From positions 1,550,001-1,614,000 of the forward strand of contig NEEC01000012.1 in NCBI GenBank assembly GCA_002189035.1: a stretch of 64,000 nucleotides of DNA, written 5' to 3'. Source of the stretch: Utricularia gibba (taxonomy: Eukaryota > Streptophyta > Magnoliopsida > Lamiales > Lentibulariaceae). A program made the translations under genes and the position numbers. The notes beneath the pieces are model-generated. The model did not search any database. It was not told the DNA's origin and saw only the letters and a list, made by a program, of their open reading frames with translations. The stretch's first letter is position 1; every line of letters starts with the position of its first letter. This document shows, one piece after another, positions 14,720-62,102 of this stretch.

Positions 14720-15390
14720 GCGATTCCCCTGAAATCAAATACATATAGCATGTAGGGATGAACTGATTAGTTTGATATAGGTGATTCCCAAACTTCAATA
14801 GCTATATTGATGTTCTTTTGATTAGCATACTTATCATTTAGTTTAATTTGATGGATAACATGATATTTAAATATTTCGATGATTCCAAAAAATGTTTAAT
14901 TATCTAATATTTAGTTTTCATTTTATCTAAATCAATAGGAATATTTAATTAATGTTATGTATCATTTTATAAAAAATTGATTAATCAACTTAAAATACAC
15001 TAAGTTTATTATGATAGATTCAAATTATTAAATGTTGGAATAGATATTTACAATTATATTATTTATAAAATTAATATATTTTTTATATTTTTTTTAATTA
15101 TTAGAAAAAGTTTTCGGATATTGTTGTAAATTTTAAAAAACTTATAAATATGAATATAATATAATAGTAATCACACCGACCAAAAGTATAATATAATAGT
15201 AATGTACGTGCTAACGACCAAAAGTATGGAAACAAATCGAAGGTAAAATAGACATGAAACACAGCGAAGGCAGAGTCAAACACCATACGACCAAATGAAG
15301 CTGATAGAGAGACCCGTGCGTCGCAAGGAACAAATTCAAGGTGTAAATACCTATACCCAGAGGGAAGATGGTGCCCTTGGCTGTAGTAAT
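14720..15390. other. Intergenic with a short tandem duplication
   Basis: AT-rich. Near 15140-15230 a unit of about 45 bp (TATAATATAATAGTAAT ... GACCAAAAGTAT) occurs twice. Otherwise nothing was seen. Confidence 0.6.
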
Positions 15391-15398
15391 CTTCAGCT

Positions 15399-16251
15399 TC
15401 ACGCGACACTAGAACTTGCCTCCATCTCCAGGGAGCAGCCACACAACTTTCTCCTCAAGTCAACCACCCACCTTCCTCTACATTTGCAGATGAGAACAGA
15501 AACAAAAATAGACCCTACTACTCCAACTCCGATGATGAGAAATCGTAGGATCACACCCAACCCCTTGCCACGGTTCCCGCGAGGGATTTCACTTGGATCG
15601 AATTCCGAATCAAAGTACCAGCTGTGAACTGAGAGGTGGGCCATCGTGCTCCCCGCAGTAAGCCCCACGAACGCCGATTCGCTTTGATAGAAGTTGCCGA
15701 GGGAAATCTTTGTCGATATAAAAGCTTCCTGAGGCTTAGAAGTTGCGTAACTCAGTACACATTCAATTCTCCGGTGGAGCCGAAGTATTCGATCCAGGTG
15801 TTGGTCGGCAACCCACTCTGCTGATCAACTCCGATGATGCTTAGGTCCCTTCCAAAGGAGGCTGCGGAGGACATGGAACCAAGATTAAGCCATACGCAAT
15901 TACTGTTCAAGAGGTTATCCATTAAGCTGCCGAATTCCACGGCCATCAATCCGATCCCCCGGCTGGAGAGTTGGCAATCAGACGAAAGGACGAAAGCAAC
16001 ACCGCCAGGGCTGGAGCTGTTGTTGTCGAATGAGAATGAAAAGGCTGTGATAAAGCTCTTGAACCCACCGCTTGGACGACGTTCGATGGGGTCGCAGTAA
16101 GCATCTCCCCGGTACCGGAAAAAAGTGCGTCGCCGTCGCTGATATTGGCGCCCTCAAGGAGCTTCATACACTCGCCAAACTCGAATCCGATCGTAGGAAA
16201 ACTCGTCAGCATAAACGTGAAGATCGGAATCGACAATGCTTTGAACGCCAT
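15399..16251 (-). pseudogene. Legume-lectin-like membrane protein, frameshifted copy
   Basis: This is a damaged paralogue of the intact gene at 19930-20889. The start MAFKALSIPIFTFML (signal peptide) at 16251, the ISDGDALFSG region, ITAFSFSF, GVDQQSGLPTNTWIEYFGST, HLSVHSWYFDS, the membrane segment FLIIGVGVVGSIFVSVLICK and the tail VVDLRRKLCGCSLEME are all recognisable but lie in different frames. At least three frame changes are needed, and the product would be shorter than its partner. Both copies are on the minus strand, about 3.7 kb apart, so this is a local tandem duplication with one copy decaying. Confidence 0.85.
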
Positions 16252-16259
16252 TGTACTGC

Positions 16260-17880
16260 TCAATCAGATGGAAAGCACTGAAGCATTAGTCCCATTTATA
16301 AGAGGGCTGATACCCAGGCGTGTTCATACCTTCAGAATTAGAAAATTCCGACGTGAGACTAACTCATTCTTCTAGAGTCCGGTCATTTCCTTCATTATAA
16401 TATATATATAATAATTATAAACTTTTATTAAAATGAACTGATAATAATACTATTAAGTTTTATATATAACTCGAATTTCATAAATTCTAATTTTTCAAAA
16501 ATGCATATTTTGTGATACTTATTTATATTGATGTATTATAGAATATATCATAAAATGTTTATTAAATAGAATAGAAAATCATAAAAAATATTCCTTTCTT
16601 GCTTCTTTTAATTAAAGAACGACCAATTTTTGTAATCAAACAAAATATGCTCTTTTCACATATATACGTGAGACTGTGTTTATTTATGTAATATAACCAT
16701 CACCATGTTGTATTTATAGCTCCCATCACAGTGTTTAATGTGCATATTTTTGTAAGTCCCAATATAAAATTAAACAATTTTATCAGTTAATTTTATTTAT
16801 TCATTTCATTTTGGAATTATATTTGAATTTTTTTAATAATTTGATTTTTTTATCATTCAAAATCAAATGGTTTTCTTTAACCGTCGATTCAATGTTTTAG
16901 AAAGTCTTCGCCATCACATGGATGACTGCATCTCTGAGCAGTCAACATACGCATCCTCTTAGGGTACGCAAATCATGTCTGTTTTCCAGGTCCACAACAT
17001 GCATATGGGGCTGTAAATGTCACATGTCACCCTAATAATACATGTTACGCGTACTTTATAATTATATTATTAATGATCATGATAACATGTAAACCTTGTT
17101 TGATATGAAAGATGAAAGTATAAGATTGATTTATGATAGTTTTAATAAAGTATTATCGCTTTGAAAGTAGTTGCTTAGGGAAGGATATAAAGGTTCCCTT
17201 GGGCTTGGAGGTTGTGTCAAGGTAACTCACTGACACACCAGGCAATGGTGGGGCCACGGTCATCAAACAACAATTTTATAATCCATTAGTTGAATAATGC
17301 ATGTTTTAAAATCATTTATCAAACAGTATTTTAATGAATTCTTTCAAATCAAACGATATATATTAATTTTTTTATTGATTTTAAAGATATATAAAAATAT
17401 ATATTAATTAATACATATGTTTTAATTAAATCAATATATATTTTTTAATCAGAAAAAGTTCATAAAAATATTATTTAATAAATACTTTTCAAATATGTAA
17501 TATTCAACGAATTAATTTTTTTATTATTTGACTAATTTACTCCTATGAATAGACCATGCCCAATTTCTCTGTTCGCAAGACTTTTTTCATCGTGCTGGCC
17601 AATTTGTCTGTTAGCATTATTAAAATGACTGCTGATGTATTATTGGTATTGTCAAACTAGGTGACATTAATGCCCGGTCCTACTGAGAGAGAATCATGCC
17701 CGACCCCACAGCCAGATGGATCACCGACTTTTCAAATCTGGCTATCCATTGACATTCGTGGAGGATCAGGATACACCATTCCTGGAACTCGACACTTCTG
17801 CCCCTACACGACATTTTCAATTTCGGGTTTCACCTATTCTGAAAAGCAGCCATCCGTACCCCACAAGCCAGGTGGTTTTT
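16260..17880. other. AT-rich intergenic DNA
   Basis: No gene was recognised. An open frame at 17661-17885 (74 residues) has no known family and is probably chance. Confidence 0.5.
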
Positions 17881-19480: not shown

Positions 19481-19929
19481 GAACAATTATGGAAATAAAC
19501 CAAGCTAAAATACAAGGTATCACATCAAGCGCAAGTTAGAGTGCAACTCCGATCTCTAAAATCCACACGGGTTTTCGATTATTTCTCCATCGTAAGTTCA
19601 CCTCTAATCGATACACACTAAATCTTCCTAGTGTCCCCATGCGAGACACCATCTGTGGGGCAGATTATTCATTTAGAGAGCTATGCTACACATCTACAGA
19701 TCTGACATGTTGAACCCCAGTGGCAGAGCGATGAGAACATGTGTAATAGATATAAACTTGCAGTAGAAATACCATCACGGCACACTCTAACATAGAACAA
19801 AACCCATACGACTAAACGAAGGTGAATAGAGAGTCGGGAGGACAGCAAAACTTTCAAGGTGTAAATACGCATACGCAAAGGGAAATCGGTGCACTTGACT
19901 GGCAAACTGCAGCTGCAACTGGAATCGCT

Positions 19930-20889
19930 TCACCCGACACTGGCACTTGCCTCCATGTCCACGGAGCAGCCACAGAATTTTCTCCTCAGGTCAACCACAC
20001 AATATCCCTTACATTTGCAGATGCAAACAAGACCAATAAAGCCTAAGCCTACTGCAACAACAGCTCGAAGGATGCTGCCTATGATTACACCGAACAACTT
20101 GTCGCGCTTACCACGGGGGATTTCAGTGGGATTAAATTCTGCCAAATTCATAGAATTATCGGGAGCTGCGCGTGGTTGTTGATTGGCATTGGGACCTAGT
20201 GAGTAAAAGCTCCAGCTGTAGACTCTGAGGTGGGCCGCTGTACTACTACTACGCATGTATCCTGCAATTCCCACGTACGCCGAGTCTTTTTGAATGTATT
20301 TTCCGAGCGAAAACTTTGCCGATATAAAAGCTTCCTTTGGCTTCGAGGTTGCGTAGCTTACAGACACATTCAATTCTGCGGTGGAGTCGGAGTATTCTAT
20401 CCAGGTGTTGATCGGAGACCCGCTCTTCAGATCAATTCCGACGAGACCTAAGTCCCTTGCCACGGAGGATGCGGATGACGCGGAGCCAAGATTAATCTGT
20501 GCCTCATTAACGTTGACGTGGTTATCCGTTACGCAGCCGTACTCTACAGCCACCACTCCCATCCCAAAGTCGATGCTGGAGAGTTGGCTATCGGACGAGA
20601 CCACGAAAGCAACACCGCCGCAGCTCGAGTCCTGGCTGTTCAATGAGAATGAGAAGGCTGTGATAAAGCTTTTAAACCCACCGTTTTGACTGCGTTCAAT
20701 CTGCTCGCAGTAAAGTATCTTCCCTTCCGCGGAAGAAACTGCGCTGACTCCATTGTTGATGATAATGTCTCCGTCGCTGAGATGGGCATCCCCAACAAGC
20801 TTCATACACTTCCCAAACTCGAATCCAATCGTAGGAAAACCCGCCTGCATAAACGTAAAGATCAGAATCGGCAATCCTTTGAACGCCAT
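19930..20889 (-). CDS. Membrane-anchored legume-lectin-like protein
   Basis: This intact single exon of 319 residues encodes a secreted L-type lectin fold on a membrane anchor, without a kinase. It has a signal peptide (MAFKGLPILIFTFMQAG), lectin strands ITAFSFSLNS, GGVAFVVSSD, GVVAVEYG...TDNHVNVNEA, SGSPINTWIEYSDST, SAYVGIAGYM and HLRVYSWSF, a transmembrane helix (about residues 263-285) and a short tail rich in Cys and basic residues (CICKCKGYCVVDLRRKFCGC). Known legume lectins bind Ca/Mn through a DT-x-D-x-N-x-NHVG loop. Here the loop is shortened to YGCVTDNHVNV and the DT pair is lost, so sugar binding may be lost. The start at 20889 is preferred over upstream ATGs because the broken copy is conserved from there. 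A role as a receptor-like protein is inference. Confidence 0.85.
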   Translation of the reverse strand: MAFKGLPILIFTFMQAGFPTIGFEFGKCMKLVGDAHLSDGDIIINNGVSAVSSAEGKILYCEQIERSQNGGFKSFITAFSFSLNSQDSSCGGVAFVVSSDSQLSSIDFGMGVVAVEYGCVTDNHVNVNEAQINLGSASSASSVARDLGLVGIDLKSGSPINTWIEYSDSTAELNVSVSYATSKPKEAFISAKFSLGKYIQKDSAYVGIAGYMRSSSTAAHLRVYSWSFYSLGPNANQQPRAAPDNSMNLAEFNPTEIPRGKRDKLFGVIIGSILRAVVAVGLGFIGLVCICKCKGYCVVDLRRKFCGCSVDMEASASVG

Positions 20890-20989
20890 TAGCTCAATGA
20901 GATGCATGATGCTGAACCAGGAGGTCTGTATATAATAAAAAAGGTGAGACAAGTTGAAAGAAAGTCCATCTCTCTCCGCGTTAATGAGG

Positions 20990-29479: not shown

Positions 29480-29833
29480 GTTTTTACCTAAATAGGACTT
29501 CTGATTGTATGAGACTCCGATGGGTGTGGAATTGACAATAGAGGAGAGGAAATAAGTCTTAGTGGGCTATAAGAATGTAGTTGGATCTCAAAGAGCTTCC
29601 TAGAGAATAATGTCATCCATTGAGCTCAAGGAAGAATCTAGAGGAAATGTGTAGCACGCTAAACAAATCAAAGAGTATTGATATGAGAGTCCTATACTAA
29701 CTTGAGGTTAGATTCTGAAATTGTAGCCTTGAATTTGGGGTTAACTGTTGTTTTTCTTATTGGTTTGATTCTGAATTCAAGACTCAGTAATAATAGGAAG
29801 AAGGTGCCTATTCTGTCAAAGGAAGCTTATGAG
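29480..29833 (+). pseudogene. 14-3-3 pseudogene, left half
   Basis: The sequence matches the intact 14-3-3 gene at 51.0-52.6 kb (opposite strand), including introns, so it is a DNA-level duplicate and not a retrocopy. It covers intron 1 (GGACTTCTGAT), part of exon 2 ([18 protein letters not shown], RASxRIMSSIE, KEESRGN), intron 2 (GAGAGTCCTATACTAA) and part of exon 3 (EFKTxNxRK...KEAYE). Internal stops (TAA in EER-K, TAG in RAS and before HAKQIKEY) and three deletions make it non-functional. It ends at CTTATGAG, where the hAT element begins, and resumes at 43784. Confidence 0.92.
29826..29833. repeat. 8-bp target site duplication, left
   Basis: CTTATGAG immediately before the hAT left end; the identical octamer follows the right end at 43784-43791. 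The empty site exists once in the intact 14-3-3 gene, at 51543-51550 (minus strand). Confidence 0.95.
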
Positions 29834-30300
29834 TAGAGTTGGGCACGCGTCCAATTCGGCAGGTCATGAGTTGAACCTGTCGAGTAAAAAATGAATTATC
29901 TTACTCGGCGGGTACGGGTTGATAGGTTGGATAGACAGACCTATCTTGAGTCTCAAGTTGACACGGGTTGGTATTTTTTAATAAAATTTAATAATATTAG
30001 ATATGTTTATTGAAACTCTATCACTTTAATGAAAACATACACTTTTCATCCACAATAACACACATTGCACCTCGCTGCTCGACACACTGCAATCGTCGCG
30101 ATAATGTCCTAGAATGGTTGAAGACGCAAGTTGGCAAGGAGTTGAGAAAATATTTGTGAGGTGGTTTTTTAGATTTTGAAGCAGCGGTACACACACCTGA
30201 GACAATGTGGACATCGATTAAGTTGAGGATGTGGTTCATAATATAGATAGGTTCTTCCTATAAGCTAAACAGTTAATGCTCAAATTGGACATGTAAAAAC

Positions 30301-31645
30301 TTGGACTTAAAGTGGCAGCCAGTATGGCATGCATTCTTCACTGGGTCGTCAGTGAAGGACAGTAGCAAGAAAAAGGATACACTTTCTGACCGGCAGTCTG
30401 GAAAGCAGGTTCAGAAGCTTTTGAAGAGCTGGACATTATGGAATGTAAAACAAGACGCGCACCTGACCCTTATCTTCTACCAGAAACAACTGCAAGAAGT
30501 GATCAAGAAAAACTGAACATCCATCAGATTAAATTCTCAAAATTAAGATTGTAGCATCGAACACTGTCGAGTAAAAGGGGAGTACAAGCAAGAAAAAGCC
30601 ATATTTCTGCACACAGAAAACATGAACCATTTCAGAAGCCATTATGCCAAAAGAATGGAAAACCGATTGACCATTTTGAAAGTGACTATGAAAGTTCCTC
30701 TGTGATTCTTAATACTTCGGATGATAAACTGCAAAATAAGATCAGAATCCATAAACTCAGGCAAGACTCGAATATGATGTCCTGTCATTATAAAAAGATT
30801 CAGAATTTCGACGCCTTCATGGCCATTTCCCGTGATAATCAAAACATCTATGAAACTAGACCAGGAAAATCAAGGCATTGCCAATAAAGACAAGGTACAG
30901 ATCATCAAAAGGACTGTGGCATTCATTTGGACAACCTCTCTCAGAAGAAGATGAGATCCAAGATCTATCCAAAAAGCTTTTAATTCAACGAAGAATCAAG
31001 CAAGAAGATGGATCTAAAATCGCCACCAATGAAAAAAAACCCAGTTAAGAAGCTTCACAAAAGCATCTTTTTCTCTTTCCCAAACTTCTTTCTTCGCAGA
31101 GAAACGACCCCGAAACCAACAATAAAGAGTCAGAAGGACAAAAGTGTAGTAGCATCAGAGCTGGCAGCAAATGGGACTAGAGATAAAAAAGAGAAATTTC
31201 AGTAGGACAACATCAGGGTCAGTGGTTCAGTGCATCCAATTCATTAAACCATATACGTGGTTTGGTGGGTTTTTTTTACTCCCACAACCTTTTTCAGTTC
31301 ACGTTCACTACTCCTTCACAACATCCACAAAGGGAAGAGAAGGGAATATCCGTTGAAGGTAGAAAGACTCGATCCGGGCGTTACATTGGTAATGGTGGGG
31401 GCAACTCCCACACAAGCTGCTTTTTTCTCCTTTATTGTCCTCTTTTCAGTTACAAGATGTTTCATTTCAATCTCATCAAGATCACAGTTTGTGCAAAACA
31501 TCAATGATTCGAATCATTACGCTCTTAAAGCTACAAATTTTGAAACTTTCTCCTCCATGAAATTCCCAAACCAACCTACCATTTTCTTTGGAGGTTCCAA
31601 CTCTGTAATCCAATTGGTCAGAATAGATGCCACAAAGGAATAATT
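30301..31645 (+). other. Unidentified cargo region with several open stretches
   Basis: Base composition is clearly less AT-rich and more codon-like than the flanks. Successive plus-strand stretches read like one decayed or intron-containing gene: WQPVWHAFFTGSSVKDSSKK at 30307, CKTRRAPDPYLLPETT at about 30438 in another frame, HFESDYESSSVILNTSDDK at 30672, MKKNPVKKLHKSIFFSFPNF at 31028. They are Lys/Ser-rich. I do not recognise the family. It could be a further captured gene fragment. Confidence 0.35.
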
Positions 31646-31649
31646 TTTT

Positions 31650-33050
31650 TAAAAAAGGCAACTACAACGAAATGACAGACTACGGTCAGAAAACATTAAA
31701 ATATAATCACATAAGCATAGCATCATATTCAATAAAATTAAATATGAGTAGATGGAAGTTGATAGTTGTGATGAAGATCTTCCAGGTAGGTAGATGTTAC
31801 TTTAGAAAGGGAATAGAAAATTGACACAAGGATCAATTCACCAAACTCAGACGTGTATATGCATTTGGTACTTTAAAAACCTTTAAATAAATTATATTAT
31901 ATGGAACGGATCCAAGAACTCACCTTTTGACAGACATTTCACCCTAAAAAAATTAAAGTGTGTTCTAAGAATGAAAAATAAAAATCAAATGAAAATTCGT
32001 ATTTTGTCATTTAAAGAAATAGAAATTGTATTTTTTTTAGAAATAAAATTTAATTAGTTTTTGAAAAATCATTAATTTCTATTTTTTATAATGAGAAATA
32101 ATAAGAAATAAGAAATGTTTCTGAATGTATGTTCTTATTAGAGTAAAAATTAATTATTTTTTATAACAAAACTAATTTTAAAATACATTTTTATAACTTA
32201 TATTGTCAGAAAAACATTTTAAAAACAATTTTATTACTAAAATAATAACTTCAAATCACCTTCTTGAATTTTTAATTTTTCAATTTTCAATTATTTTTAA
32301 AAAATATAGAAATTTACTTTCTATTTTCCTAAAAATACTTCTTGAAATGTATTTTTCAAAATAGAATCAAATAGAACCTATTTTATTCAATAGTTGATAG
32401 TTAGTCTTGAAGAATGATTTATTTGGAATAAATATTTGGTAAAAAGTTTTATTGTAAACATATAAAAAAAATTAATTTTAAATAATATCACGTGAATGGA
32501 AAAACATAAGATTATTTTATTTCAGACCTTAAATATAATTTAAAAATACAATACATGCATAAATATAAAAACTTTAACATAATTAAATTCGTCTATCAAA
32601 TATATTTAAAATCTAAATCTATAAATTTTATTTTTATTTTAAATTATGTAACTTAACTTTTAAATAAACTAAAAAAGGTGCCTTTAATATTTGATGTGCA
32701 TAGATGATGTATGAAATATGAGATGTTACACCTACCGCATTATTACAATTGATTTTGGTACCAGGCTCAATTCAATATATTGGCTCTGTATTGAGATTAT
32801 TATTAAAAATATACTTGAGAATAATGGAAAAAAAAGCCGAAAAAATCAATAATTGAACCAATCCGAAATTATTTCGCTTTTTTTTCGGTAGATTCTGCTA
32901 TTTGGTTAAATTGAATGATTTTAAATTTTTAATAAAATAGAATATTAATAGAAAATGATTTTTTTTAAAAAAAATACATTAAATTTCAGTTTTCAATTAT
33001 ATTACTTTTATAAGGCGTAATTGGAAAGAGCAAATCAGCCTTCTTAGTGA
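31650..33050. other. AT-rich spacer inside the hAT element
   Basis: No coding sequence was seen. Confidence 0.5.
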
Positions 33051-33054
33051 TGTG

Positions 33055-33130
33055 GGTTTTTCATGGGCCAAAGCGCAATTTAAGTTTCACGGCCCACGGT
33101 TACTTCGCCACCGTCGTGTTTTTTCGACTC
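33055..33130 (+). promoter_or_regulatory. Site II-like promoter elements upstream of RRP43
   Basis: TGGGCC at 33065 and GGCCCA at 33090, about 30 bp apart, match the plant Site II element TGGGCY common in promoters of growth and RNA-processing genes. They lie some 750 bp before the coding start, which fits the presence of a long 5' leader intron ending at the CAG near 33858. The copy therefore carries its own promoter. Confidence 0.5.
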
Positions 33131-33850
33131 CGGCGCCGTCCTCACTGCTATCGCAGCGAAGCGAAGTGGAAGTCTTGGGGATTAGTAGTCACTTTTAAGT
33201 TGCCGAGCGGCCGACATTCATAGATTGAATTGGAGAAGTTTTCAATCAAAGTCGTTGGGATCAAGCGGAGGTGGCGACGCGACCGGTGGTTTTAGGATTT
33301 TCTTGGGAGAGTGGCTCGTGAGAAACGTTTTTTAGGAGAGTTGACGACTTCAGAAACTTTTCTTACTAGGTACATCAGCTCGAACTGCTGGGTTTGATGT
33401 CGATGGTTTTGTGGATGTTGGTGTAGCTAGTGTTAGGGTGAAAAAGCTTTCTCCTTGGATTTTTTTTAGATATGGGTTTTGGCTGGGAATTGTCTGGTTG
33501 TGCTGCTCATAGTCAGTTAACGAAGTTCAGTGTGATTGTGTTTTTCCCTTTGTAACTTGTTATTTTTGTGTCTCGGGTATTGATGGACATTCATATACTC
33601 ATCGAACTCGCATTTCGTGGGTTGATGATGCATCTATCAATTTGTAATCTTTTTTGATGGCTTGCGCCTATGTAAAGCCCCGCTGGCATATGTAGTCATT
33701 ATCTGATTCTGCTAGGTTTTCCCAAGATTTGTAGTTCACACGAAATTTCTTTTGTAAGCATCAGAAAATGCTGCTATCCTGTAATTTTTTTTTATTTCCG
33801 TTCTGCAAAAAGGATCAAATGAAAGGCAGTTCCTATAAGATACAATTTGA

Positions 33851-35574
33851 ATGTTGCAGAGGTCGCCGGAAATAGCTGCTACTAGCGGAGCAAGCGATTT
33901 GTCTTCAGAGATTGAAGTGGATTCTTTCAGACGTCTTTTCCCTCTGCAGTTTCACGAGCGCCATCTAGTTGAATCAATAAGGCCTGATGGGCGCCCTCTT
34001 GGAAAAGCTAGAGACACTACCGTTATGCTTGGTGAACATTATTTTCTTATTTTTTCTGTTTTATTTTTGAGTAGGCGCATTGTCACTAGAAATCTCGCAA
34101 TCATGTTTCTAGGAGCTGTAGCATCTACTAACGGATCAGCATTGGTAAAGATAGGGTCAACTGTAAGTCCCTTTTTCGGTGGCTGCTGATGGGTATGAAG
34201 AACCTTTTATGTTAGGGAATAATGACAGCTGTGTTTACTATCCTCAGACAATGTTAGCTGCCATCAAGTTGGAAATCATGACTCCGACTGCAGAGGCTCC
34301 GAATAGGGGATCCTTAGTTAGGAATATATATATATATATATGGATATATATATTTTGCGTAGGTAACCTAAAATTTAATCTTCCTCTTTACGTATTTAAT
34401 GGTTCTAATATTTTTACAGAAATTGATTTTCACATGCCTGCTATATGCTCTCTGCTGGTTCGCCCTGGCAGGCCTGCGGAAATAGCTCCTGTAATATCAA
34501 AACAATTATCCGATGCCATTTTGAGGTTAGGGGTTTTTGGTTTTCTTTGGGTATTGCCCTACGCCCCTTCGTTGACACTGATCTGTTAGGATTGGTATTG
34601 TTCTTTCAGTTTTTTGTATTGTCTGCTTGCTAACTTAAACTCGCTGAACATTCAAGTTGGTAGTTGATACTTGCTTCTTATTTCACTAGCATACTATTCC
34701 TCTGAAATACTGCTGCAGTTCTGGCATGATTAACATGGATGATCTATGTTTAGTCAGCGGTAAAGCTGCTTGGATGGCCTTTTTGGTAATGAATATTGCA
34801 TCCCCTACACCCACAAAGATTCCTGCTATCGGCATAATGAATAAATAAAGATTGTTGCAGGATGTGTACTGTTTGGATGCTGATGGTGCCCTTTTCGATG
34901 CAGCTATGCTAGCCGTTGTGGCTGCCTTCTCCTCTTGTATATATCTTCTTCATTTTACTCCTAAATTCACTGTTTGTTTACCCAGCCTTCCAGATTGATG
35001 CATAAAGAATTGTCTCGCAGTGGAGATACCAGTTGTTTCGCTGAACGATGATGGAAGGATAGTTCTTGTACCTGAGGTGAGTCCTGGGGAGATGACTGTC
35101 AAGGAGCCTATCAACGTAGAAAAGAAGAAGCTGAAACTCAATACTCTGCCATTTTCACTTACGTGCTTGCTTCACAAGAACTACATCCTGGCTGATCCCA
35201 CATCCGAGGAAGAGTCCATTATGGAGACATGCCAAACGGTGGTGCTGGACTCTTCATATCGCCTGGTTTGGCTTAATAAGCCTGGTGGTTCATGTCTTGC
35301 ACCCACACCAGCAATCAGGGTAACTTTCTTGTCAATGTTACCATTAGTAATTGACTCTGCTGCCCATTCATATGTTTGATTGTCCATTGACTCTTTGTAT
35401 ATTTGATTGTCAGTAGCTTGTGTGATTATGCAAATATGTCTAATTCTTCATGACTGTAGAGCCACGTTGAACGTTTCTTTTTGTGTGAAATGTATGCTTT
35501 GCATGCAGGAATGCATAAAACTGGCGCGACAACGGGTAAAAGAACTCAGGAAGATCTTGAGTGAGGCCATTTAG
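33851..35574 (+). CDS. RRP43: Exosome core subunit RRP43 (RNase PH-like), cargo of the hAT
   Basis: RRP43 is one of the RNase PH-fold ring subunits of the RNA exosome (3'-5' RNA decay). Exons: 33851-34031 (EVDSFRRLFPLQFHERHLVE, SIRPDGRPLGKARDT), 34113-34162, 34248-34317, 34420-34525 (IDFHMPAICS, VRPGRPAEIAPVISKQLSD), 34719-34785, 34861-34936 (VYCLDADGALFDAAMLAVVA), 35021-35319 (EIPVVSLNDDGRIVLV, PFSLTCLLHKNYILADPTSE, EESIMET) and 35509-35574 (LARQRVKELRKILSEAI). Nearly all borders are GT/AG and in phase over the full family length. The third intron is odd: phase requires the exon to end at 34317, but the following bases are TTAGGA, not GT, as if one G were lost. The start codon is uncertain because a CAG acceptor lies inside the first codons. 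Confidence 0.85.
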
Positions 35575-35579
35575 CCTTT

Positions 35580-36205
35580 TCTCTTCCATCATGAAAATTC
35601 ATTCAAGCCACTTGAAAAGATTTTGTTAAGCTAAACCTTCAATTTTTTTTGTTTGGTATAGGATTCAGTTGGTTTTCTAGTTTATCGGTTGCACTTTAAT
35701 TTGCTTTTTTTAAAAAAAAAAATGAACGAGTAACAATAGTTTTGATTCATATGTTTAGGTTTGTTATATTAACTGAAATCGATTAAAAATTGATGGATAT
35801 TAGTTTGCTTCAGCTTTTGTTTCTGGTTTTGGATTATCATCCTTGAATTAACATGTTCTGAGCAACCACTCAAAGCATGCGTTATGTAAAGAATTTCTAT
35901 TGCATAGAGTAGAAGACATTGTGATTAACTGAAGGGCTGTTAAAAATTGTGTGTTTACATTTCACAGTGGAGAGAAATGAATGCCCTTGAAGCTTTTAAT
36001 TGGACAGTTAATCACTCCAACCCGTTAGTCCTGTGTCATACAACAGTGAGGAATAACTACAGAAATCCATAACCTATATGCAAACCTTAATATACACACA
36101 TTCCTAATAAGTTTGCAGGAAACAGCTCTATTAAGCTTCAATGACCATACAGAATGTTGATGATCTGCTTCTCAAAGGAAACTGTCTTATCCTTATGAGC
36201 CGGCT
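35580..36205. other. Spacer between convergent RRP43 and MED15-like genes
   Basis: Contains the 3' flanks of both genes. 36151-36238 is a duplicate of 36429-36515 (see the MED15-like entry). No gene of its own. Confidence 0.6.
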
Positions 36206-36516
36206 GAATTTCATTCTTGGAAATTCTCAGAGACTGAACCTTGTCCATTCAGAGACTGCATCTGAGAATTCATTTGACCTTCATTTGTCTGCATCTGAGA
36301 ATTCATTTGACCTTCATTTGTCTGCATCTGAGAAATTTGAGGCTGTTGCTGCTGAGGTTGCTGTGCAGCAAGCATGTGTTGTCCTTTCTGCAATGAAGAC
36401 ACAGGCTTTCGAGGCCCATTTGAATTCAGAATGTGGATGATCTGCTTCTCAACCTGAACTGTCTTATCCTTAAGAGCCGGTTGAATTTCATTCTTGGAAA
36501 TTCTCAGAAATGAAAG
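36150..36516. repeat. Repeats at the 3' end of the MED15-like gene
   Basis: Two levels are seen. 36151-36238 repeats 36429-36515 at an offset of 278 bp (both contain GATGATCTGCTTCTCAA and TTTCATTCTTGGAAATTCTC). Between them a 33-bp unit starting TCTGCATCTGAGAATTCA occurs about 2.7 times. The larger duplication puts a second, out-of-frame copy of exon sequence just beyond the stop. Confidence 0.85.
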
Positions 36517-38496
36517 CAATCGCTCCAACATTCCCTTGAAAAAGTAGAGCTTATCAAATTGGTCACCCTTTGGCATGAGGAATCGAATCATGCTGCAAAA
36601 GCAGAAGTAAAGTCAGTCGAAAATAAAAATGTTGATAATCAAAGTGAATTTTCAAAGATAAATCTGGCCTTTTATAAATAATTTGTTTGAAGAGAGACTA
36701 GTTTGCAGTGCATTAAGGTGAAATTTTATGTGCTTTATATGCCTCATTAAGAAGTAGATTATAGGCATTGTGCTTGGTCGTATAAGTAATTAAATGAATA
36801 ATCTCATTTACCCCTATTTAACAGTTATTTACTCACCTTATTCGAAATACCCATTTAAAAAAAAAGAAAAAAGAAATCAACGATTTCAGTTGTAGAATCC
36901 TACAGATATTACTGTTACCTGACGTGAATAATGCTCAGCATCCCTTGTCATGGACGCTACTTGAACTCTCATCTCCTGGAATTCCACCTAAAAGAGCCGC
37001 ATACATTTAGTACAAATTTCCCATTAAATACTTCCCCCCTAGATAATTCCTTCCATGAACTAGTAGGAACAAATAATTAGTATTTTTGAAGTTTATCTTC
37101 ATTGATGTATGGGCTAAACTATTTATCGCTGAAGATAATTTATTGAGCAGAAGATAGAACATATACCTCCATTAATGAAAGTTTACTTTCAGCCTCAGGA
37201 TTTATTGGTAAAGCTTGATGAAACGTTAAAATGATGAAAAGAAGTATAAGAAAGTGGGAATAAAAATTTGATACACGGCAATAGAAATTGAATGATACAG
37301 AGTTGGAAGGAAATGTATTCTTAAAAAAAAAAAAAGAACCAGACGTCATACGTCAAATCGATTTAAGTGATGGATTATACACGCGTGATTACTTTCTATC
37401 AACAAAACCTACATCAGCTTTCAAATTTAAATAACCACAGATTGTGAAGCACAAAACACACCAATCAACCACTTGATCAAAGGTGACCAATTAGAGTACA
37501 ATGAAAATCAAACAGTAGCTCACCTGCTGCAACTTTGCAACAAGTCTATGGTATGCTTCGTTTAATTCAGAATAATACATCTCATTCATGGATTTGATCT
37601 GCAATCAGCCCAAAAGTTAGGAAGACTAAAGTGGAGCTTCACACAGAAAACGCACACGCGACTGGTCACAGTTGCCAATCTCCACCTAGATGTAATACCT
37701 TTTGATACGTTTCTTCTTGCCAATCTCCGCCTGAATTTCCCATCTGTGACGAGGGATCTGGAGATGCTAAGTTTTCAAAGTGTTAGATTAAGCAAAAGAG
37801 AACCATGCTGAAAAGCAGTAAATGAATTATACGGCACAATCCAGACAAGGAAAGAACATTCAATTTTTGAATCCATGGCCTGCACTAATAGCTGAGCCTC
37901 ATTATAAAGGGGATGGTCTGCCGGTGAGAATATATCGAGCCCAAATGCCACAAGAGCAAGGAGAGTCACCTTCTCAATGGCAACAACTAAAAAAAAAAAA
38001 GAACTCTTTTCATATACTTCAGCGATATTCTGTACCTGGGTCCTGCGAATTACTTCCACCACCAGGCTGCATAGAATCCGGATTCTGAGACTTTGTCTCC
38101 GCAGTTAACATCTTCATAGATATTTCTCTTAGATAATCTGACTGTATGTCCAATTAAAAGACAACAGGAACGGTCATTATACATGTAACGCTCAGCGTGT
38201 ATGCAGGAGGAAACAGGGGAAAATTCATTTAAACCTGGCTTGTTGCTGCGATGTATTTCTTCTCCTCAAGCCTGACAGCGATTTTTTTGAGTTCTTGCAA
38301 TCCCTCTGGTCCAGAATAAGGAAGATGCCTCTTCAGCGTCTCCATTCTGCAATCGAAAGCATCATAATTGATACTTATCTCAAAATCTTAAAAGACACTC
38401 CTCCACCTAAACTTAAAACCTAATTCTTACATTTTATTCACAATTCTCTCCCTAGAATCTTGTTGCAGGTGACCCCTCCAATCACCGCCTTCCATT
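36211..38496 (-). CDS. Short MED15-like mediator protein with KIX domain, cargo of the hAT
   Basis: MED15 is a Mediator tail subunit whose N-terminal KIX domain binds activators. Exons on the minus strand: about 38496-38439 (MEGGDWRGHLQQDSRERIVN), 38343-38236 (METLKRHLPYSGPEGLQELK, KIAVRLEEKKY; KIX helices), about 38155-38046 (SDYLREISMKMLTAETKSQN), about 37760-37698, 37605-37527 (IKSMNEMYYSELNEAYHRLV), a possible exon near 37000-36920, and 36594-36211 (DQFDKLYFFKGMLERLLSFL, VEKQIIHILNS, then a Gln-rich tail). Full-length plant MED15a exceeds 1,000 residues; this one ends after about 300. The tail has 33-bp repeats encoding MQTNEGQMNSQ. It is likely a truncated capture or a short KIX paralogue; expression is unknown. 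Confidence 0.7.
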
Positions 38497-38759
38497 CCCG
38501 CGTTTGCCACCGGCTCAGCACCCACGACCTGACCAGGAATTTGAACATGGGCATGCGTTCCTCAAATCGTTAAAAAAAAAAAAAACGCACATAACCTTAT
38601 ACAAAAAGAAGATGATGCACTGAAACTTTTCGCTTCCAAAATCAACTTTACGACGAAGAAAGAAAAAAAAAGGCAACTACAATCAGGTTGGAAACGAAAC
38701 AAAGGGATCAGGAATTTTGACCTAACGGATTGGAATGCTTGTTCAGACAGCAGCCGTCA

Positions 38760-39395
38760 CGAAAATATAGCGATTTTCTTTTCATTTTTTTTAAATTATT
38801 AATTATATTTTCAAATAATACCATAAGCAATCTATAAATTTAATTGTATTTAATTTTTCATTTTTTAAATTCAGTGCAAAAGCTATTATTTCATATATAG
38901 TATCAAATGATATATATAATTAAATATTTATTTTCATCCTTTAAAATGATCCACACCATACACACAACAATTTTAAAAATAGAAATATATATTAAATATA
39001 TAATTTAGTATTGAATATAATGAATTATATTCAAATATTTTTTAAATTAAAAAAATTAAATCTAGTTTTTTTCCTATATATCAAGTATATTGAATTAAAA
39101 ATGATATGGTCAAATGAGATTATATTAATATTTGATATTATTCAAAAACTTAGAATATAATCTACATGACTTATTTCATAATTTTCATTTAATTTATAAA
39201 TATAATTTATTAAATGAGTAAAACCTAAATAAGTAGTTGTTGTGTGCACAACATTTGAAAAAATTGATGACTTATTTTGATAAGTAAACAAAGGTAACTT
39301 ACAAAATAAGCTGGATTTTGAGTAGAAATGTAAAGAAATTTAAAATAAGTAAAAATTAAGTGAAAGTTTGAATAGAAATTATAAATAATTAAAAA
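38760..39395. other. AT-rich spacer inside the hAT element
   Basis: No coding sequence was seen. Confidence 0.6.
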
Positions 39396-39399
39396 TTAA

Positions 39400-39920
39400 A
39401 ATAATATATAATAATTTATTTTAAGGAAAATATTATTTTTTAAATCATAATATTTGATTTATTTTTATTTTACAATCAAATACTTTATCTTGTATAAAAT
39501 CTTAATAAAAAATTTACCAATAAATTTATTTTATGCCATTACAACCAAAAACTCATGGTAACTAACTATCACGATTATCATTTGCACTACTTTCTTTTTT
39601 TGATTCAATAATTATGTATTTTTTTCAAATAATTTCCCATAATTTTTAATAATTGTGCTGAAAAATAATAATTAAATCAATTATAACTTCAAATTTTTTT
39701 CGATTTATTTGAAAAATACATAATTATTGAATAAAAAAAGAAAATAGTGCAAATGACAATCGTGATAGTTAATTCCCACAAATTTTTGATCAAGATATCA
39801 TAAAATGAGTTTATTGGTAAGTTTATTAATTGGATTTTATATAATATAAATTGTTTAACTGTAAAATAAAAAAATTCAAACATTGTAATTTAAAAAATAA
39901 TTTTCCTCTAATTTTAATAT
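39400..39920. mobile_element. Foldback MITE-like element nested in the hAT
   Basis: The left arm (39400-39635) is the reverse complement of 39695-39920, with strong matches such as AACTATCACGATT, TCATTTGCACTA, TTCAATAATTATGTATTTTT and TTTACCAATAAA. The loop is about 60 bp. There is no coding capacity. A clear target duplication was not found. Confidence 0.7.
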
Positions 39921-40120
39921 ATACTTTAAATTACAAGTAAAAAAATAAATCATACATATTATATTCTTAGATTAATAATATTAAAAAAATCGACATTTCT
40001 CTATTTGATTAATTGATGGATTAAAAATGATGTGATGTAATTTTATTTTTTTAAAATAAGTAGTAAAAAATAAAATGCGCTCCCCCGTTCTTCCATCAGG
40101 TTCACTAGTTTGGTCGTCCA

Positions 40121-40890
40121 TCAATGCCTGAAGTGCCTTACTTGGGTGAAGACGAGCGCAACTCCGTACTTGTTGCAGCAGTCCACCGCGTCGGGATCCC
40201 TCAGGCTGCCGCCCGGCTCTGCGATCACGCCGACGCCGCTTCGACACGCTTCCTCCACGGCGTCGTTCCAAGCTGCGACGATGCACCACAACACAAAACT
40301 AAGAGGTGATGGAGGATTCCAAGCACGCCTTCTAGAAGGAAAATGTACCGAATGGGAAGAACTCATCGCTGGCCAGAGCAGCTCCCCTGATGTCATCCCC
40401 TGCCTTCTTCATCGCAATCCTCAAGCTCTCGAGACGGTTCGGCTGGCCGCATCCCATACCGAGCATGCACTTGTTCTGTCCAAAATAAACTTGCTGCAGT
40501 GAAAACTAGTGAAGTGTGCAGGAAGTCAGGGGAAATGCAGACCTTGGCTATGACAATGGCGTTGCTCTTCACATGTTTTACGCAGAGCCATGCGAATTTG
40601 GCGTCGTCGAGTTCATTTTCCTGTGGGGATTTCTCTGAGCGGACACTGAACTGGATATCCTCCAGGCTTAGCTGATCTGCCTCCTGAACCAACCAGCCAC
40701 CGCTGACTTGCCTCAGTGCAATCTTTCCTCCTGTGCTTTTGGTTGCCTGGAGGATTCTCAAGTTCTTGGACTTCCCTCGGAGTATTTCGAGGCCCTTTTC
40801 GGAGTACTTGGGAGCGATGATGATCTCATAGAACATGCGGGTTTCTCCATCAGTTGGACTCCTGAATTCTCTTATGTCTCTAGCTAAATC
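40121..40890 (-). pseudogene. 3' end of PURH (AICAR transformylase/IMP cyclohydrolase), cargo of the hAT
   Basis: PURH performs the last two steps of IMP synthesis. Three exons in phase encode its C-terminus: 40890-40543 (EIIIAPKYSEKGLEILRGKS, GGWLVQEADQL, DAKFAWLCVKHVKSNAIVIA), 40475-40349 ([20 protein letters not shown], then [12 protein letters not shown]) and 40272-40121 (AWNDAVEEACRSGVGVIAEP, then CCNKYGV and the terminal RHFRH stop). The KHVKSNAIV and PNR blocks are transformylase active-site regions. All three exons are undamaged, but everything upstream of the first (the cyclohydrolase domain and most of the transformylase) is missing, so it cannot make a complete enzyme. The GC-rich third exon contrasts with the AT-rich transposon around it. 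Confidence 0.92.
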
Positions 40891-40989
40891 CTGAGAAGCA
40901 AATAGGATGAACACATTAAGAGGCCTGAGGATTTTGCAACGATCAAAGTTACCATATGCCCACGACATGTTCATTTCCAAAGTCACACC

Positions 40990-41850
40990 ATGAGTTATTG
41001 ATTATTCTACGAAAGTTACCATATTGAATATTTTAATGTTCATAGGACTTTGGCATGTAGGTGACTCCAAACCCTTGCTTATATGGTTGATTCTTGGACT
41101 TATGAGCAATTTTTGAAATTCCTAATTTTGGAGCTTGGTGCGGCTTGAATGCATCTGCAATCTTTGTGTGAAAATGAAAATTAGGACCTAATTTTCAGCC
41201 TTTGTGATTAAAGTTTTTTTTTCAAATATTGATTTCAGCTTTCTGCACCTCTGTACTTGATGTTGCAGAAATTTGTTGAATTCTCTGTGTTAGAATTTTT
41301 TTTTCTAAAATACCTGTTGTTTTTTTTATTCATCAAAATGACTTTGGTTTGACATTTAATGCTTGTCTCGTGTTTTTTTTTAACATTGCCTGTTGTTTTG
41401 TTGCCTCATGATATTTTGACTCATCAAAATATCTTTTATTTTTATTTTAATCAAATATTTTATTACCAAAAAAACTTTTCAAAATATTATTATTCAATTT
41501 CATGATTTTTTTTAATTCTATTCACATCTATATTAGAAATATGGAAAATTTCAGATTTAGAATTAGATTTAAAAATAGAAATTTTAGGGAAATTGAAAAA
41601 GAATGTAATGTATTTTAAAACCAAAAATTCAAAATATTAATAAAGATACATTTTGAAGAGTTTTTTCTCAAATATAATTGAATTTTATTCTATTAATACT
41701 AAAATTTTTGAATAGTATTACATTTTTAAGAAATATAAAGATTTAACTTCTGTTTTATTAGATTATTTTTCAAAAAAAATTAACTTAATAGATTTACATA
41801 ATTCAGATTAGGGTAAAAAATCTAAAATTTAGGGTTTAGGGTTTACATAA
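40990..41850. other. AT-rich spacer inside the hAT element, with telomere-like repeats
   Basis: At 41828-41845 TTTAGGGTTTAGGGTTT gives two to three plant telomere units. There is no coding sequence. Confidence 0.6.
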
Positions 41851-41859
41851 TTCAAAGGT

Positions 41860-43224
41860 ATACATTTTTTTTTGCATCTGGTCGAATATTAGGAAGTCCA
41901 AGAAATGTAAAATAATCACAAAACAAATTTAAACCGGTTGACTTCACCCTAGAATCAAGCATGTTTACTAGAATATCAAAGACTATGGAAACCAAGGCAG
42001 ACAACACAACATGTGTGATAGGATAGTAAACATCATTAAATAATCTAGTGTATTTATGAAAAATAAAAAGCAAGTCAACTAATATGTCAAATTTAACATA
42101 CACATCATCATCAATCATAATATTTAGATCGGTATGCGTAGTTAAAAACAATGAAATAACTTCTCTATAAGGAATAAAAGATTGAAGCATGAAAACATAG
42201 AATTCCATCGTGTTGACAAATCTTTTTTTAGAGTTCGAAAGGATAGACCCTTTAACTCATATAGATGCTTAAAAGATACTCTTTTTGTGCTAAACATCTT
42301 CATATGATAAACTATCCTACACACATGCTAGACAAAACAGCCTCATTATCATTTTCATTTAGTGCATCTTGTATATATAAATTAAAAATATGACAAATGC
42401 ATCTTGATCTAAATAAACACCAACCTAAAATAATATTCATGGATGATTTCAATATGGATGTCACAACAGTATTATTTGGAGCATTATCAAGATGTATATT
42501 AAATATACGATCAACAATTACATATTCAATACATATAGAAGTAACAAATTCAGCAATTTATGCCCCCGTGTGTGGAGAATCCAAAGGTCTAAATCCAAAG
42601 ATTCTCTTTTGTATAAATCATTTGCAATCAATTCAATGAACAATTACAACTACATAATTCTCACCATTAATACCATGTCAATCATCACAAGTCAAACCAA
42701 ATTTACATTTCATAGATTGAAAATCAAAGATCAAACGTGATTTTTTTTTTGAATTGTTTTAATGCAATTCTAACTACTTTTCTTCGAGACATGGGAGCGA
42801 ATCTAGGTTGCAATCTAGATTAATAAAAATTTCTAAAAATTGGATTTTCTACTTCTACAAAAGGCTTTTCACTAGCAATCAATGTAAGTACATAATCAAT
42901 TTGGGTAGCATCAAGATCAAATGAAAAGCTCAAAACATGACCACACATAAAATTTATAGTAGGTTGTCTCAATGAAGTACATATCTCATTTATATGCTTA
43001 TTTCTAATGTGACGAATGAAATTAGAAGTTGAATCATGTTTACCATGGTCATACACGATTCCACAATATTTATAACATACCTTTTTGGCCTCCTTATCAC
43101 AATTGAAATGTTCATGCCAATTGATGCATGAAGCATCTTGTTTTTTTGAGGTGAAAGAGACATCTTCCCCATCGCTCGACACCTCAATATCACACTCGAG
43201 ATGTTGTTCGTGTGAACGTATCAC
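41860..43224 (-). pseudogene. Decayed hAT transposase
   Basis: The frame starts at 43224 with an acidic lead, then a BED-type zinc finger (VCYKYCGIVYDHGKHDSTSN, FIRHIRNKH; the first Cys pair is C-x3-C instead of C-x2-C) and FVEVENPIFRNFY. After stops and frame changes come the hAT core LDNAPNNTVVTSIL and RCICHIFNLYIQDALNE near 42500-42320, then DLSTRWNSMFSCFNLL near 42230 (the usual D-x-x-T-R-W-N-S motif) and the C-terminal part to about 41860. It is read inward from the right end of the element. It cannot encode an active enzyme, so any recent movement needed a helper element. Confidence 0.85.
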
Positions 43225-43783
43225 ACTTTGATGTGATTCTTCAATATTTAGTTATCTGAAACACAATTGAGAGAAACAAATCACTCCCAAACCTTACATA
43301 AATAACTATAAGCCGCAGATACACACGTCCATTTCTCTTTGGATAGTTGCGCACATACCTTTTGGAAGGTCTCCAAACACCGCAAAGCATGTGGGTTCTA
43401 GAGATTCAGATCCAATTGTTGTCCGACAGCCTTCAAAAATTCAGAATTCAGCTCCTAAATGCGCAATGAACAACACAAGCGTTTGAATATTTTCTTGTAT
43501 TTAAGCAAAAGGGTACAAGCGTTTCATAATCATGTTATGAGCTGCCCATGTATTTATATTCTTGTGAATTGGGACTTTGTAACATCATATACATAAAATA
43601 GATTGAAGTCCAACAATTAAGCAGCCCAACACTTCTTAATACACTACACTATAGGTCCATTTTGGCTAACCCATCAGGTCGACCTGTATTGGTGTACATT
43701 GACCCATCCCATATCTATTTTCGATGGTTACGAGTAACAGATCAGACCCCTCACGGGTCAACCTGTATCCATGCCCAGTTCTA

Positions 43784-43791
43784 CTTATGAG
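43784..43791. repeat. 8-bp target site duplication, right
   Basis: CTTATGAG directly after the right end of the hAT, identical to 29826-29833. Confidence 0.95.
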
Positions 43792-44014
43792 GTATATACT
43801 GCACCACTTGGCATTCTTAATGACCATATAAATTGTTTATTGTATGTTTGCTGCATATGATTGGAAGCTCTATGCTATTTAATCCTTTTGAATGGTCAAT
43901 GAGTTTCAGATTTTTGATTAGTCTAATTGATTCATATTTTTTTATCCACTAAAAAACCGGCCTTTTGCATTTTTGCTTTCTAATTGACGACTAAAAAAGC
44001 AGTTGAGGCAGATT
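43784..44014 (+). pseudogene. 14-3-3 pseudogene, right half
   Basis: The pseudogene resumes here with intron 3 of the 14-3-3 gene (GTATATACTGCACC; GTTTGCTGCATATG; TAGTCTAATTGAT; TTTTTTTATCCACT) and the first bases of exon 4 (AAAGCAGTTGAGGCAG), matching 51542-51330 on the minus strand. Similarity stops at about 44014, after which unrelated sequence begins. Confidence 0.92.
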
Positions 44015-51014: not shown

Positions 51015-52568
51015 TAACCTGCTTCATCTGTGATGTCAGAGGTCCACAGCGTCAGATTGTCCCTAAGGAGTTGCATGATCAAGGTGCTATCTTTGTATGA
51101 TTCCTCACCCAAGGTATCAAGCTCAGAAACTGCTTCATCAAATGCTTGCTTTGCAAGGTGGCATGCCCTGAAAAGAGAGTGGAGTGAGTTTAAAAGCTAA
51201 GAAAAGAGAATCGTTTTCATAAATTGGCAGCAAGACAAACCTTTCAGGAGAATACAAGATTTCATAGTAGAACACTGAATAATTTAAAGCCAAACCCAAG
51301 CGGATTGGGTGGGTTGGTGGAAGCTCTGCCTCAGCTGCTTTCGTTGCATTCTATCAGCAAGGACAAATGCAAAGCCGGTTTTTCAGTGGATAAAAAAATA
51401 TACGGATCAATTAGACTAAAAAGTCTAAAATTCATTGACAATTCAAGATGATTAAATAGCATGAATTTTCAAACCATATGCAGCAAACACACAGCGAACA
51501 ATTTCTATAGCCATTAAGCATGCAAACGGGCGCAGCATATACCTCATAAGCTTCCTGTGACAGATCAGCCACCTCCTTCCTATCATTACGGGTCTTGAAT
51601 TCAGCAAGGTACCTATAGTAATCTCCTTTCCTAACAAACCAAAAAAAAAAAAAAAAAAAGTTAACACGAAATCAGGCAGAATCAAGCGTTACATTAGTAT
51701 AGGACTCTCACATCTTGTAGTAAAACACAGTGGATTCACCAGTTGTGCAAGCAGGAATAAGATGTCCATCAATAAGCGTCATTATTTCACTGCAGATATT
51801 GGTGAGCTCTGCCTCCACCTTATGGCGATACTCTTTGATCTGTTTGACGTGTTGCTCATTTCCTCTAGATTCCTCCTTGTGCTCAATGGATGACAATATT
51901 CTCCAAGACGCCCTTCGAGACCCAACTACATTCTTATAGCCCACTGAGAGCAAGTTCCTCTCCTCTACTGTCAATTCCACACCCATCTGAGCCACCACTT
52001 TCATAGTCTCAACCATTTCTGCAACATGAAATCCAATTCTCATAGTATCAGAAGTCCTGCTTAGGCGATCAGTTTTCTAGGAAAAATAAAAGCTACTGCA
52101 TACTTCTCTTCAGGTAATTCAAGAAGGAACATATACCCTTAACAAAATATGAGTTAAGAAAGAATACATACTGAAGTAAAAGCATCTGATAGCTGCAGTG
52201 TTTTGGCTTGAAAAACATGGAAGTAATGCTATTTTTTACCCAATAATATATCCTTCCTCTTCAGACAAAAAGGAAAAAAAAAACACTACACAACGATGAG
52301 TTTAACTTACTTCTCGCAGTGCGAAATACACAAGCTACCACACAACAAATTGATCCAAATATGAGATATCTCACGACTTCGCTCATTCATAATTTCCCCA
52401 AAGATCAGAATAAATAATTAACACTAAAATGAAAAAAGAAAACCACATCAAATCAAAAACACCAGAAGACAGAGTTCAAAAGGCATAAATTTCACCATCA
52501 TATCGCTCCGCTTGCTCGGCAAGTCTAGCGAGGTACACGGCGGTTTCCCGATCCATGGAAGGTGCCAT
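51015..52568 (-). CDS. 14-3-3 phosphopeptide-binding protein
   Basis: 14-3-3 proteins dimerise and bind phosphorylated Ser/Thr motifs in many signalling proteins. Five exons on the minus strand: 52568-52496 ([20 protein letters not shown]), 52018-about 51721 ([40 protein letters not shown]), about 51629-51543 ([20 protein letters not shown], ending EAYE), about 51352-51246 ([20 protein letters not shown]) and about 51171-51015 ([38 protein letters not shown]). The conserved Lys, Arg and Tyr residues of the phosphate pocket are present. The C-terminal tail is very short; GCAGGTTAA at the end could also be a donor to a further exon. Its exon 3-intron 3 junction is the undisturbed copy of the hAT insertion site. 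Confidence 0.93.
51637..51659. repeat. Poly(A) run in a 14-3-3 intron
   Basis: About 20 consecutive A on the plus strand (T in the transcript) just before the exon 3 acceptor, serving as a long polypyrimidine tract and prone to length errors. Confidence 0.8.
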
Positions 52569-56693: not shown

Positions 56694-57242
56694 ATGGCCG
56701 AGTCTCCGGTTCTCCTCCCCGTCTCCGAGTCCGGTCCACCGGCGCCGAGCCGCTACGAGTCGCAGAAACGCCGTGACTGGAATACTTTCAATCAGTTCCT
56801 CCGGAACCAGCGCCCCCCGGTGGCCCTGTATCACTGCACCAGCGCCCACGTCCTCGAGTTCCTCCAGTATTTGGACCAGTTCGGGAAAACTAAGGTTCAT
56901 TACCAAGGGTGTATCTTCTTCGGACACCCGGAGCCGCCGGCGCCGTGTCCGTGTCCGCTCCGACAGGCTTGGGGGAGCCTCGACGCCCTGATCGGGAGGC
57001 TACGCGCCGCCTACGAGGAGAACGGGGGATCGGCGGAGACCAACCCGTTTGCTAATGGGCACATAAAGAATCATCTGAAGCAGGTGAAGGAGCATCAGGG
57101 GAAGGCTAGAGGAGTGCCGTACGATAAAAAGAAGAAGAAGGCGAGCAAAAATGATGATGGGGGTGATAGCAGTTTATATCGATGTGTGAGGGTTGTAGAA
57201 CAGATATATTTTCATGTTATGCAAGAGTACACATATTTATAG
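56694..57242 (+). CDS. ALOG/LSH-family protein, C-terminal tail replaced by copia LTR sequence
   Basis: ALOG (LIGHT-DEPENDENT SHORT HYPOCOTYLS) proteins are nuclear DNA-binding regulators of organ boundaries and light growth. The 182-residue frame starts at [16 protein letters not shown] (56694) and contains the full ALOG domain at about residues 20-145: [40 protein letters not shown], then the zinc-ribbon-like insertion [38 protein letters not shown] and [20 protein letters not shown], followed by the nuclear signal KKKKK. From codon 157 (57164) the frame runs into the left LTR of a copia element and ends at 57242 with about 25 foreign residues. Only about eight native residues appear lost. 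The DNA-binding part is intact, but the native 3' UTR is now 5 kb away, so transcript ending is probably altered. Confidence 0.9.
57159..57163. repeat. Copia target site duplication, left (GGGGG)
   Basis: Five G before the left LTR; the same five follow the right LTR at 62511-62515. Confidence 0.85.
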
Positions 57243-57553
57243 TTCTTTAGCAACGGTCGCCTACTTCTAGGGATTAGCCGTTGCTCACTACGACTTCCAA
57301 CAATATTGACTTCAGCACGTTGGGCCATATCATCATGTTGGGCCATTTTCTTGAAGTGGATGAGTAGCAAGATCTTTGTTGGTGGCCCATCTTCTGATCT
57401 TGCTGTCCAGTATAATCAGTCCGAGTTGCTGACAGACCTTCTTCTTCTTCCTCCCGTTATCTCTCAACACATTCGTATTTTCCTGTTCTGGGTCCTCCAC
57501 ATTTCTCACAGTTTGCTGCTGGTTTATCTCATATTCGTCCTCACTCGACATCA
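57164..57553 (-). repeat. Copia 3' LTR (390 bp)
   Basis: Begins TGATAGCAG and ends CGACATCA (TG...CA on both strands). I could find no difference from the LTR at 62121-62510. It holds the last ~73 codons of gag-pol. A purine tract (AAGGAGGAA on the minus strand) lies just inside at 57554-57563. Confidence 0.95.
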
Positions 57554-61988: not shown

Positions 61989-62102
61989 GATGACACTCTT
62001 TTGAGAACCTGCGATAGAATATAGAGTAAGGTAAGAAGCCTTTAGATGTAGTGTTTGAGTGGCAAACCGTGTTTGGAAGGATAGCAATGTTGAGCTGCTT
62101 GT

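Follow-up and report, generated by a model that had tools for sequence, protein, structure and literature searches.

A 13,950-bp non-autonomous element at positions 29834-43783 of the window, the 64-kb stretch of Utricularia gibba DNA analysed here (C244:1550001-1614000), is a large Pack-type hAT. The best explanation, which we consider very probable, is that a single non-autonomous hAT, located in a degenerate copy of a 14-3-3 gene, exchanged its interior for ~11.6 kb of mostly host DNA. The way in which cut-and-paste transposons acquire genes of their plant hosts is a matter of debate, and in the present case one genome shows the empty site, the donors, the break points and cargo-free relatives alike. 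Searches were run against the 100-Mb genome, and since this assembly may be incomplete, absences are weak evidence. Positions given without a contig refer to the window.

Borders, empty site and hAT relatives

A sequence-only reading of this DNA had proposed a hAT of ~14 kb with exact borders, inverted ends and identical 8-bp duplications, and the borders were confirmed to the base. The left terminal inverted repeat (TIR), TAGAgtTGGGCAcG (29834), agrees at 11 of 14 bases with the reverse-complemented right end TAGAacTGGGCAtG (43783), and CTTATGAG lies on both sides. As in other hATs, the short TIRs start with TAG/CAG and are common to the family (14-bp ends, ~20 places), and the 8-bp target-site duplication that flanks the element is present once in the empty site, with 8-bp duplications also in the relatives. 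In an end scan of the whole 64-kb window, no sites besides the element's two matched the family ends with fewer than three mismatches; the element thus has a single pair of ends and none in its interior. The framework of the element and its target is as follows.

29826-29833, no strand: left 8-bp target-site duplication CTTATGAG
29834-30261, plus strand: hAT left end, TIR and subterminal region (428 bp), 73-75% identity to two relatives over its full length
41853-43783, minus strand: hAT right part, TIR and decayed N-terminal and middle transposase, with identity to relatives
43784-43791, no strand: right 8-bp target-site duplication CTTATGAG
51325-51991, minus strand: related empty site, a 14-3-3 paralog with a 14-3-3 domain and one CTTATGAG at 51543-51550

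The hAT interrupts a degenerate copy of a 14-3-3 gene whose paralog lacks the insertion at the corresponding site. In a self-comparison of the window, both flanks matched one stretch on the opposite strand, 29771-29833 corresponding to 51604-51543 and 43784-44012 to 51550-51325. When the flanks were joined and aligned to 51604-51325 (minus strand), one uninterrupted alignment ran over the junction with a single CTTATGAG, and hence the entire 13,950 bp is missing at the related site. The empty-site stretch (51.3-52.1 kb in the window) is a 14-3-3 gene (PF00244, E 1.3e-50), and the copy interrupted by the element is decayed, with in-frame stops.

The genome search with the first and last 300 bp, proposed earlier as a way to find sister elements, returned ~20 relatives that share its ends. 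The first 300 bp matched 21 other places at 71-80% identity, mostly from base 1. The last 300 bp matched 18 other stretches: the second haplotype (C247) accounts for one, and the others are relatives, some of them split in several. Many of the ~20 end-sharing places carry both the ends and the duplications, which are perfect in many of the short ones. The short relatives measure ~0.35-0.67 kb, while complete long ones measure 4.9-5.7 kb, or 7.3 kb with a probable nested transposon; this type of hAT is normally ~5 kb long in Utricularia gibba. Three long relatives are listed below.

C451:4971186-4976072: long relative, 4,887 bp
C402:1730682-1736332: long relative S4, 5,651 bp
C451:5063328-5070616: long relative S5, 7,289 bp

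The surplus length of S5 is a 4.1-kb segment (C451:5063512-5067597), apparently a nested PIF/Harbinger-type transposon in which DDE_Tnp_4 was found at E 0.00018, below the Pfam cut-off. S5 as a second cargo-bearing element is disfavoured by the appearance of this extra segment.

The right hAT part (1.93 kb) shows 81-88% identity to relatives over its main stretch and lower identity toward the end, and it is on this DNA identity that the putative affiliation of the element to hAT transposases rests. Its transposase has no dimerisation part, and zf-BED was found at E 0.0028, below the cut-off. In the transposase of the relatives, PF14372 (RNase-H-like) and PF05699 (dimerisation) both scored above the cut-off. 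Several relatives (on C402, C414, C451, C510 and C409) have in common a 1.8-kb coding-like segment (C402:1731064-1732854) that S5 does not have. One reading frame of this segment matches Transposase_28, and the segment is possibly an earlier gene capture. A by-eye likeness to a piece of an FCP1-type phosphatase found no support in Pfam, NCBIfam or structure sequences.

Cargo segments and their donors

Most of the 11.6-kb filling is DNA from at least four unrelated plant genes: RRP43, a MED15-like gene, the gene of a golgin-5-like exon, and PURH. Its segments are arranged from left to right as follows.

30261-36144, plus strand: segment A, copy of C244:2200984-2206980, 1.1-1.6% substitutions
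33872-35574, plus strand: RRP43 copy, 8 of 8 coding exons with introns
36147-36894, minus strand: segment B, 3' part of a MED15-like (KIX) gene, C244:1999634-1999005, 2.2% substitutions over 36289-36890
36891-37196, minus strand: segment C, 306 bp, one golgin-5/TMF-like exon, C505:2853618-2853923, 98.0% identity
37197-37905, minus strand: segment D, MED15-like gene, C244:1998992-1998284, 2.4% substitutions
37887-40975, minus strand: segment E, 5' part of a MED15-like gene (KIX domain) and a PURH fragment, homology to three C244 copies
40976-41852, no strand: filling of mixed origin, with a repeat at ~41258-41781

The decayed hAT transposase, RRP43 on the plus strand, and MED15-like and PURH on the minus strand had all been named from the letters, and all are present. 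The earlier cargo list was right about its three genes, but it took RRP43 for a gene part when it is a copy of the complete gene, and it overlooked the golgin exon at 36891-37196. Nor did that reading name the empty site, the 14-3-3 target or the donors.

Segment A comprises RRP43 and ~3.6 kb of DNA upstream from the coding exons. Its donor is an intact gene, with 297 amino acids, GT-AG at all introns and a match to human RRP43 (E 2e-54). The copy in the element is broken and decaying: its start codon has changed from ATG to ATA and the splice donor of exon 3 from GT to TT, and it differs from the donor by seven amino-acid changes and no silent ones. A plant hAT can therefore hold a copy of a complete intron-containing gene together with its upstream region.

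Within segment B, 33 bp are duplicated in tandem, and an additional exon piece of 85 bp (36147-36231) lies beside the main copy (36233-36894). Between B and D, segment C takes the place of 12 bp of the MED15-like donor; no match to it was found in the genome besides C505:2853618-2853923. The exon encodes VEFQ(E/K)MRVQVASMTRDAEHYSRQ, and a Pfam search for its golgin identity gave no clear match; the coiled-coil exons that neighbour its donor on C505 resemble what we take to be a golgin-5/TMF gene.

Both domains of segment E were recognised (KIX_2, E 3.7e-10; AICARFT_IMPCHas, E 2.2e-27, also a purH match). Its homologues are C244:1943865-1946909, C244:1988783-1990874 and C244:1993828-1996124, none of which is clearly closest. 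The genic parts differ from these copies by 1.3-3% substitutions in most 300-bp blocks and the AT-rich spacer by 5-14%. A foldback of ~520 bp (39402-39923 in the window, 76% self-complementary) is found in the donors too and was copied along with the cargo. The region C244:1942365-2001111 holds three related copies of the MED15-like/PURH block in both orientations, and a second contig, C246, spaces these blocks differently, which suggests structural variation between haplotypes. In the filling of mixed origin, the repeat at ~41258-41781 is present in at least ten other places, and the genome search returned no donor for most of 40976-41257 and 41782-41852.

The identified gene donors lie 0.35-0.62 Mb from the element on the same contig, with the exception of the golgin exon on C505. 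Homologues of the MED15-like gene and of the RRP43-upstream region are ~0.21 Mb apart on C213, a spacing similar to that of the C244 donors, and no hAT ends were found at the donor borders. By these two observations, the element is the derivative and the donors, whose positions on C244 look native, are the source. The possibility that the cargo consists of native loci was rejected, as the donors are elsewhere on C244 and two have homologues at similar spacing on C213. Native RRP43, MED15 and PURH loci, which the sequence-only reading had suggested looking for, were thus located elsewhere on C244; that reading would have failed had the ends been unique and the cargo genes been the native loci, but relatives share the ends and the donors lie apart from the element.

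Replacement of the interior and rival origins

Between the two hAT break points the relatives hold 0.7-3.2 kb (3.19 kb in S4; 0.73 kb in S5, from which the 1.8-kb segment present in three other relatives is absent) and the element holds none. The filling of ~11.6 kb has therefore replaced the hAT interior together with the C-terminal part of the transposase, and with it the dimerisation region was lost. Plain nesting of an insert in a complete hAT would not account for the missing interior, although a separate deletion could.

The junctions overlap by 1 bp (hAT-A), 1 bp (B-C), 0 bp (C-D) and 4 bp (D-E, CTCA), and five unmatched bases lie between A and B; these values were read by eye from alignments. 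Overlaps of 0-4 bp fit template switching during gap repair. The second haplotype contig, C247, shows the element only from 41188 rightwards, at 99.7-99.9% identity; for the left and central junctions there is a single assembled haplotype. Their presence in a single contig would be compatible with a chimeric assembly, but every segment differs from its donor by ~1-5% substitutions and not by 0%, and the right hAT junction and right border recur in the second haplotype at the identity given above, which makes an artefact extremely improbable.

Helitrons and Pack-MULEs gather several intron-bearing gene pieces. It could be argued from this general knowledge, and from the occurrence of the ~41258-41781 repeat elsewhere, that an ordinary hAT came first and that the composite entered it later as a nested mobile element such as a gene-collecting Helitron or Pack-MULE. 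For a nested Helitron, the host sequence should be continuous around the insert, but the hAT is not continuous over the filling and the 0.7-3.2 kb of the relatives is missing. Moreover, the left break joins the hAT directly to donor DNA with the 1-bp overlap, the repeat search saw no long inverted arms around the filling, and no other copy of the composite was found in the 100-Mb genome. We consider this origin very unlikely. The same missing DNA at the break points disfavours the alternative offered earlier, an empty hAT that received later insertions. Macrotransposons are known for linked Ds elements in maize. With this precedent, cited in PMC3260210, and with a comparable origin of Pack-TYPE elements, proposed in PMC8903248 as tandem insertion followed by re-mobilisation, two neighbouring hATs might have used their outer ends and taken along the native DNA between them. 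The absence of internal hAT ends speaks against such a fusion, as do the left and right hAT parts, which are complementary parts of one element, and the cargo, a set of copies with native loci in other places, none of them bordered by hAT ends. As both internal terminal repeats and native adjacency of the cargo genes are absent, we rejected this origin, whose probability we put close to nil.

Assembly, timing and known systems

The element is non-autonomous and contains host gene DNA within intact ends and duplications; the donors are elsewhere, the introns are kept, and the same ends do not flank the donors, all of which places it among the Pack-TYPE elements as a Pack-hAT. The earlier reading of Pack-type gene capture is in this way borne out by donors elsewhere, copied cargo, a replaced interior and a related empty site. 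The element was probably assembled by template-switching gap repair. A double-strand break in the element, most simply from its own excision, would have set off repair synthesis that first copied DNA into the element and afterwards switched from one template to the next, usually within the same contig, at microhomologies of 0-4 bp, until repair ended by joining the remaining hAT end. The captured genes would be passive passengers that then decay. Because both ends are kept, the element might still be moved by the transposase of a relative.

Divergence between cargo and donors is alike in every traced genic part, at roughly 1-3%, which is compatible with a single event or a few in quick succession. 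Acquisition of the cargo may have taken place on the spot, after insertion at the 14-3-3 site. A compatible variant of gap repair, somewhat unlikely in our judgement, is that the composite arose by template switching elsewhere in the genome and that the 14-kb element, cargo included, transposed into the 14-3-3 copy afterwards; the FoSTeST model describes a similar course for multicopy Pack-TIRs. In favour of this variant, the target duplication has remained perfect and cargo and donors differ by no more than ~1.1-2.5%, so that capture and insertion could be of similar age. The composite, however, is single-copy in the genome searched, eight duplicated bases cannot date an insertion, and for single-copy Pack-TIRs of animals in-place gap filling is in most cases the explanation (PMC8277862). 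Capture could have come before or after the insertion, and this single site in related plants could separate in-place gap filling from capture before transposition. It is rather doubtful that the family captures genes repeatedly and that this copy also moved as a complete 14-kb multi-gene unit. The 1.8-kb coding-like segment already shared by several relatives and absent from one could stem from a previous capture, and if the whole claim were true, a plant hAT would be able to carry an entire gene with ~3.6 kb of upstream DNA.

Such elements had been called little described in plants, which is only partly right, since Hatvine-6, maize Ds elements and Pack-hATs are published. Plant hATs with gene pieces are already known; unusual here are the size, the at least four gene sources and the completeness of the history. 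Hatvine-6 of grapevine is a hAT with shared ends and transposase whose variable region frequently corresponds to exons, introns and non-genic DNA of the host, and it is similar in showing transduplication by a plant hAT; it differs in its variable length and in a target duplication of 9 bp (8 bp here), and the available part of that report contains no example of a 14-kb element with several donors for which a donor map or an empty site is given (PMC2528002). Maize Ds2 and Ds-l4, in the part of the source available, are non-autonomous hATs with gene fragments and, as here, filler DNA including some intron-bearing host gene pieces with identified donors. The modal length of Ds-l4 is ~1 kb, its two mapped examples have one gene piece each, and the compound Ds-l4-483 measures 7,344 bp; no element that combines a complete gene with three further sources is described in that part (PMC3260210).

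The Pack-hAT class of Pack-TYPE elements, identified automatically in rice and maize, likewise combines terminal repeats and an 8-bp duplication with host coding DNA, sometimes from several loci, whose number rises with element length; the present element does not fit the proposal made for them, in which tandem insertion is followed by re-mobilisation (PMC8903248). Animal Pack-TIRs are mostly hAT and Tc/mariner, mostly single copy, and have nearby donors, with a median microhomology of 2 bp at the breaks of single-copy cases. The present element resembles them in being single copy and filled from nearby loci with short microhomology, and differs in captured length (median 224 bp versus ~11.6 kb here) and in the gap (median 4.6% of the host element versus a much larger loss here) (PMC8277862). 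ToxhAT of wheat-pathogenic fungi is, according to the available part of its description, also a cargo-carrying element of ~14 kb named as a hAT, but it is fungal and moved between species with a gene important to its host (PMC12506042), whereas the cargo here is copied from housekeeping genes and is decaying in at least one case.

Two further features were observed in the window. A young LTR retrotransposon (57164-62510) has two 390-bp direct repeats that are 100% identical, TG...CA ends, GGGGG on both sides and a minus-strand open frame of 1,584 amino acids that spans most of the element. Direct repeats of 70-75% identity lie at 15277-16270 and 19798-20904.
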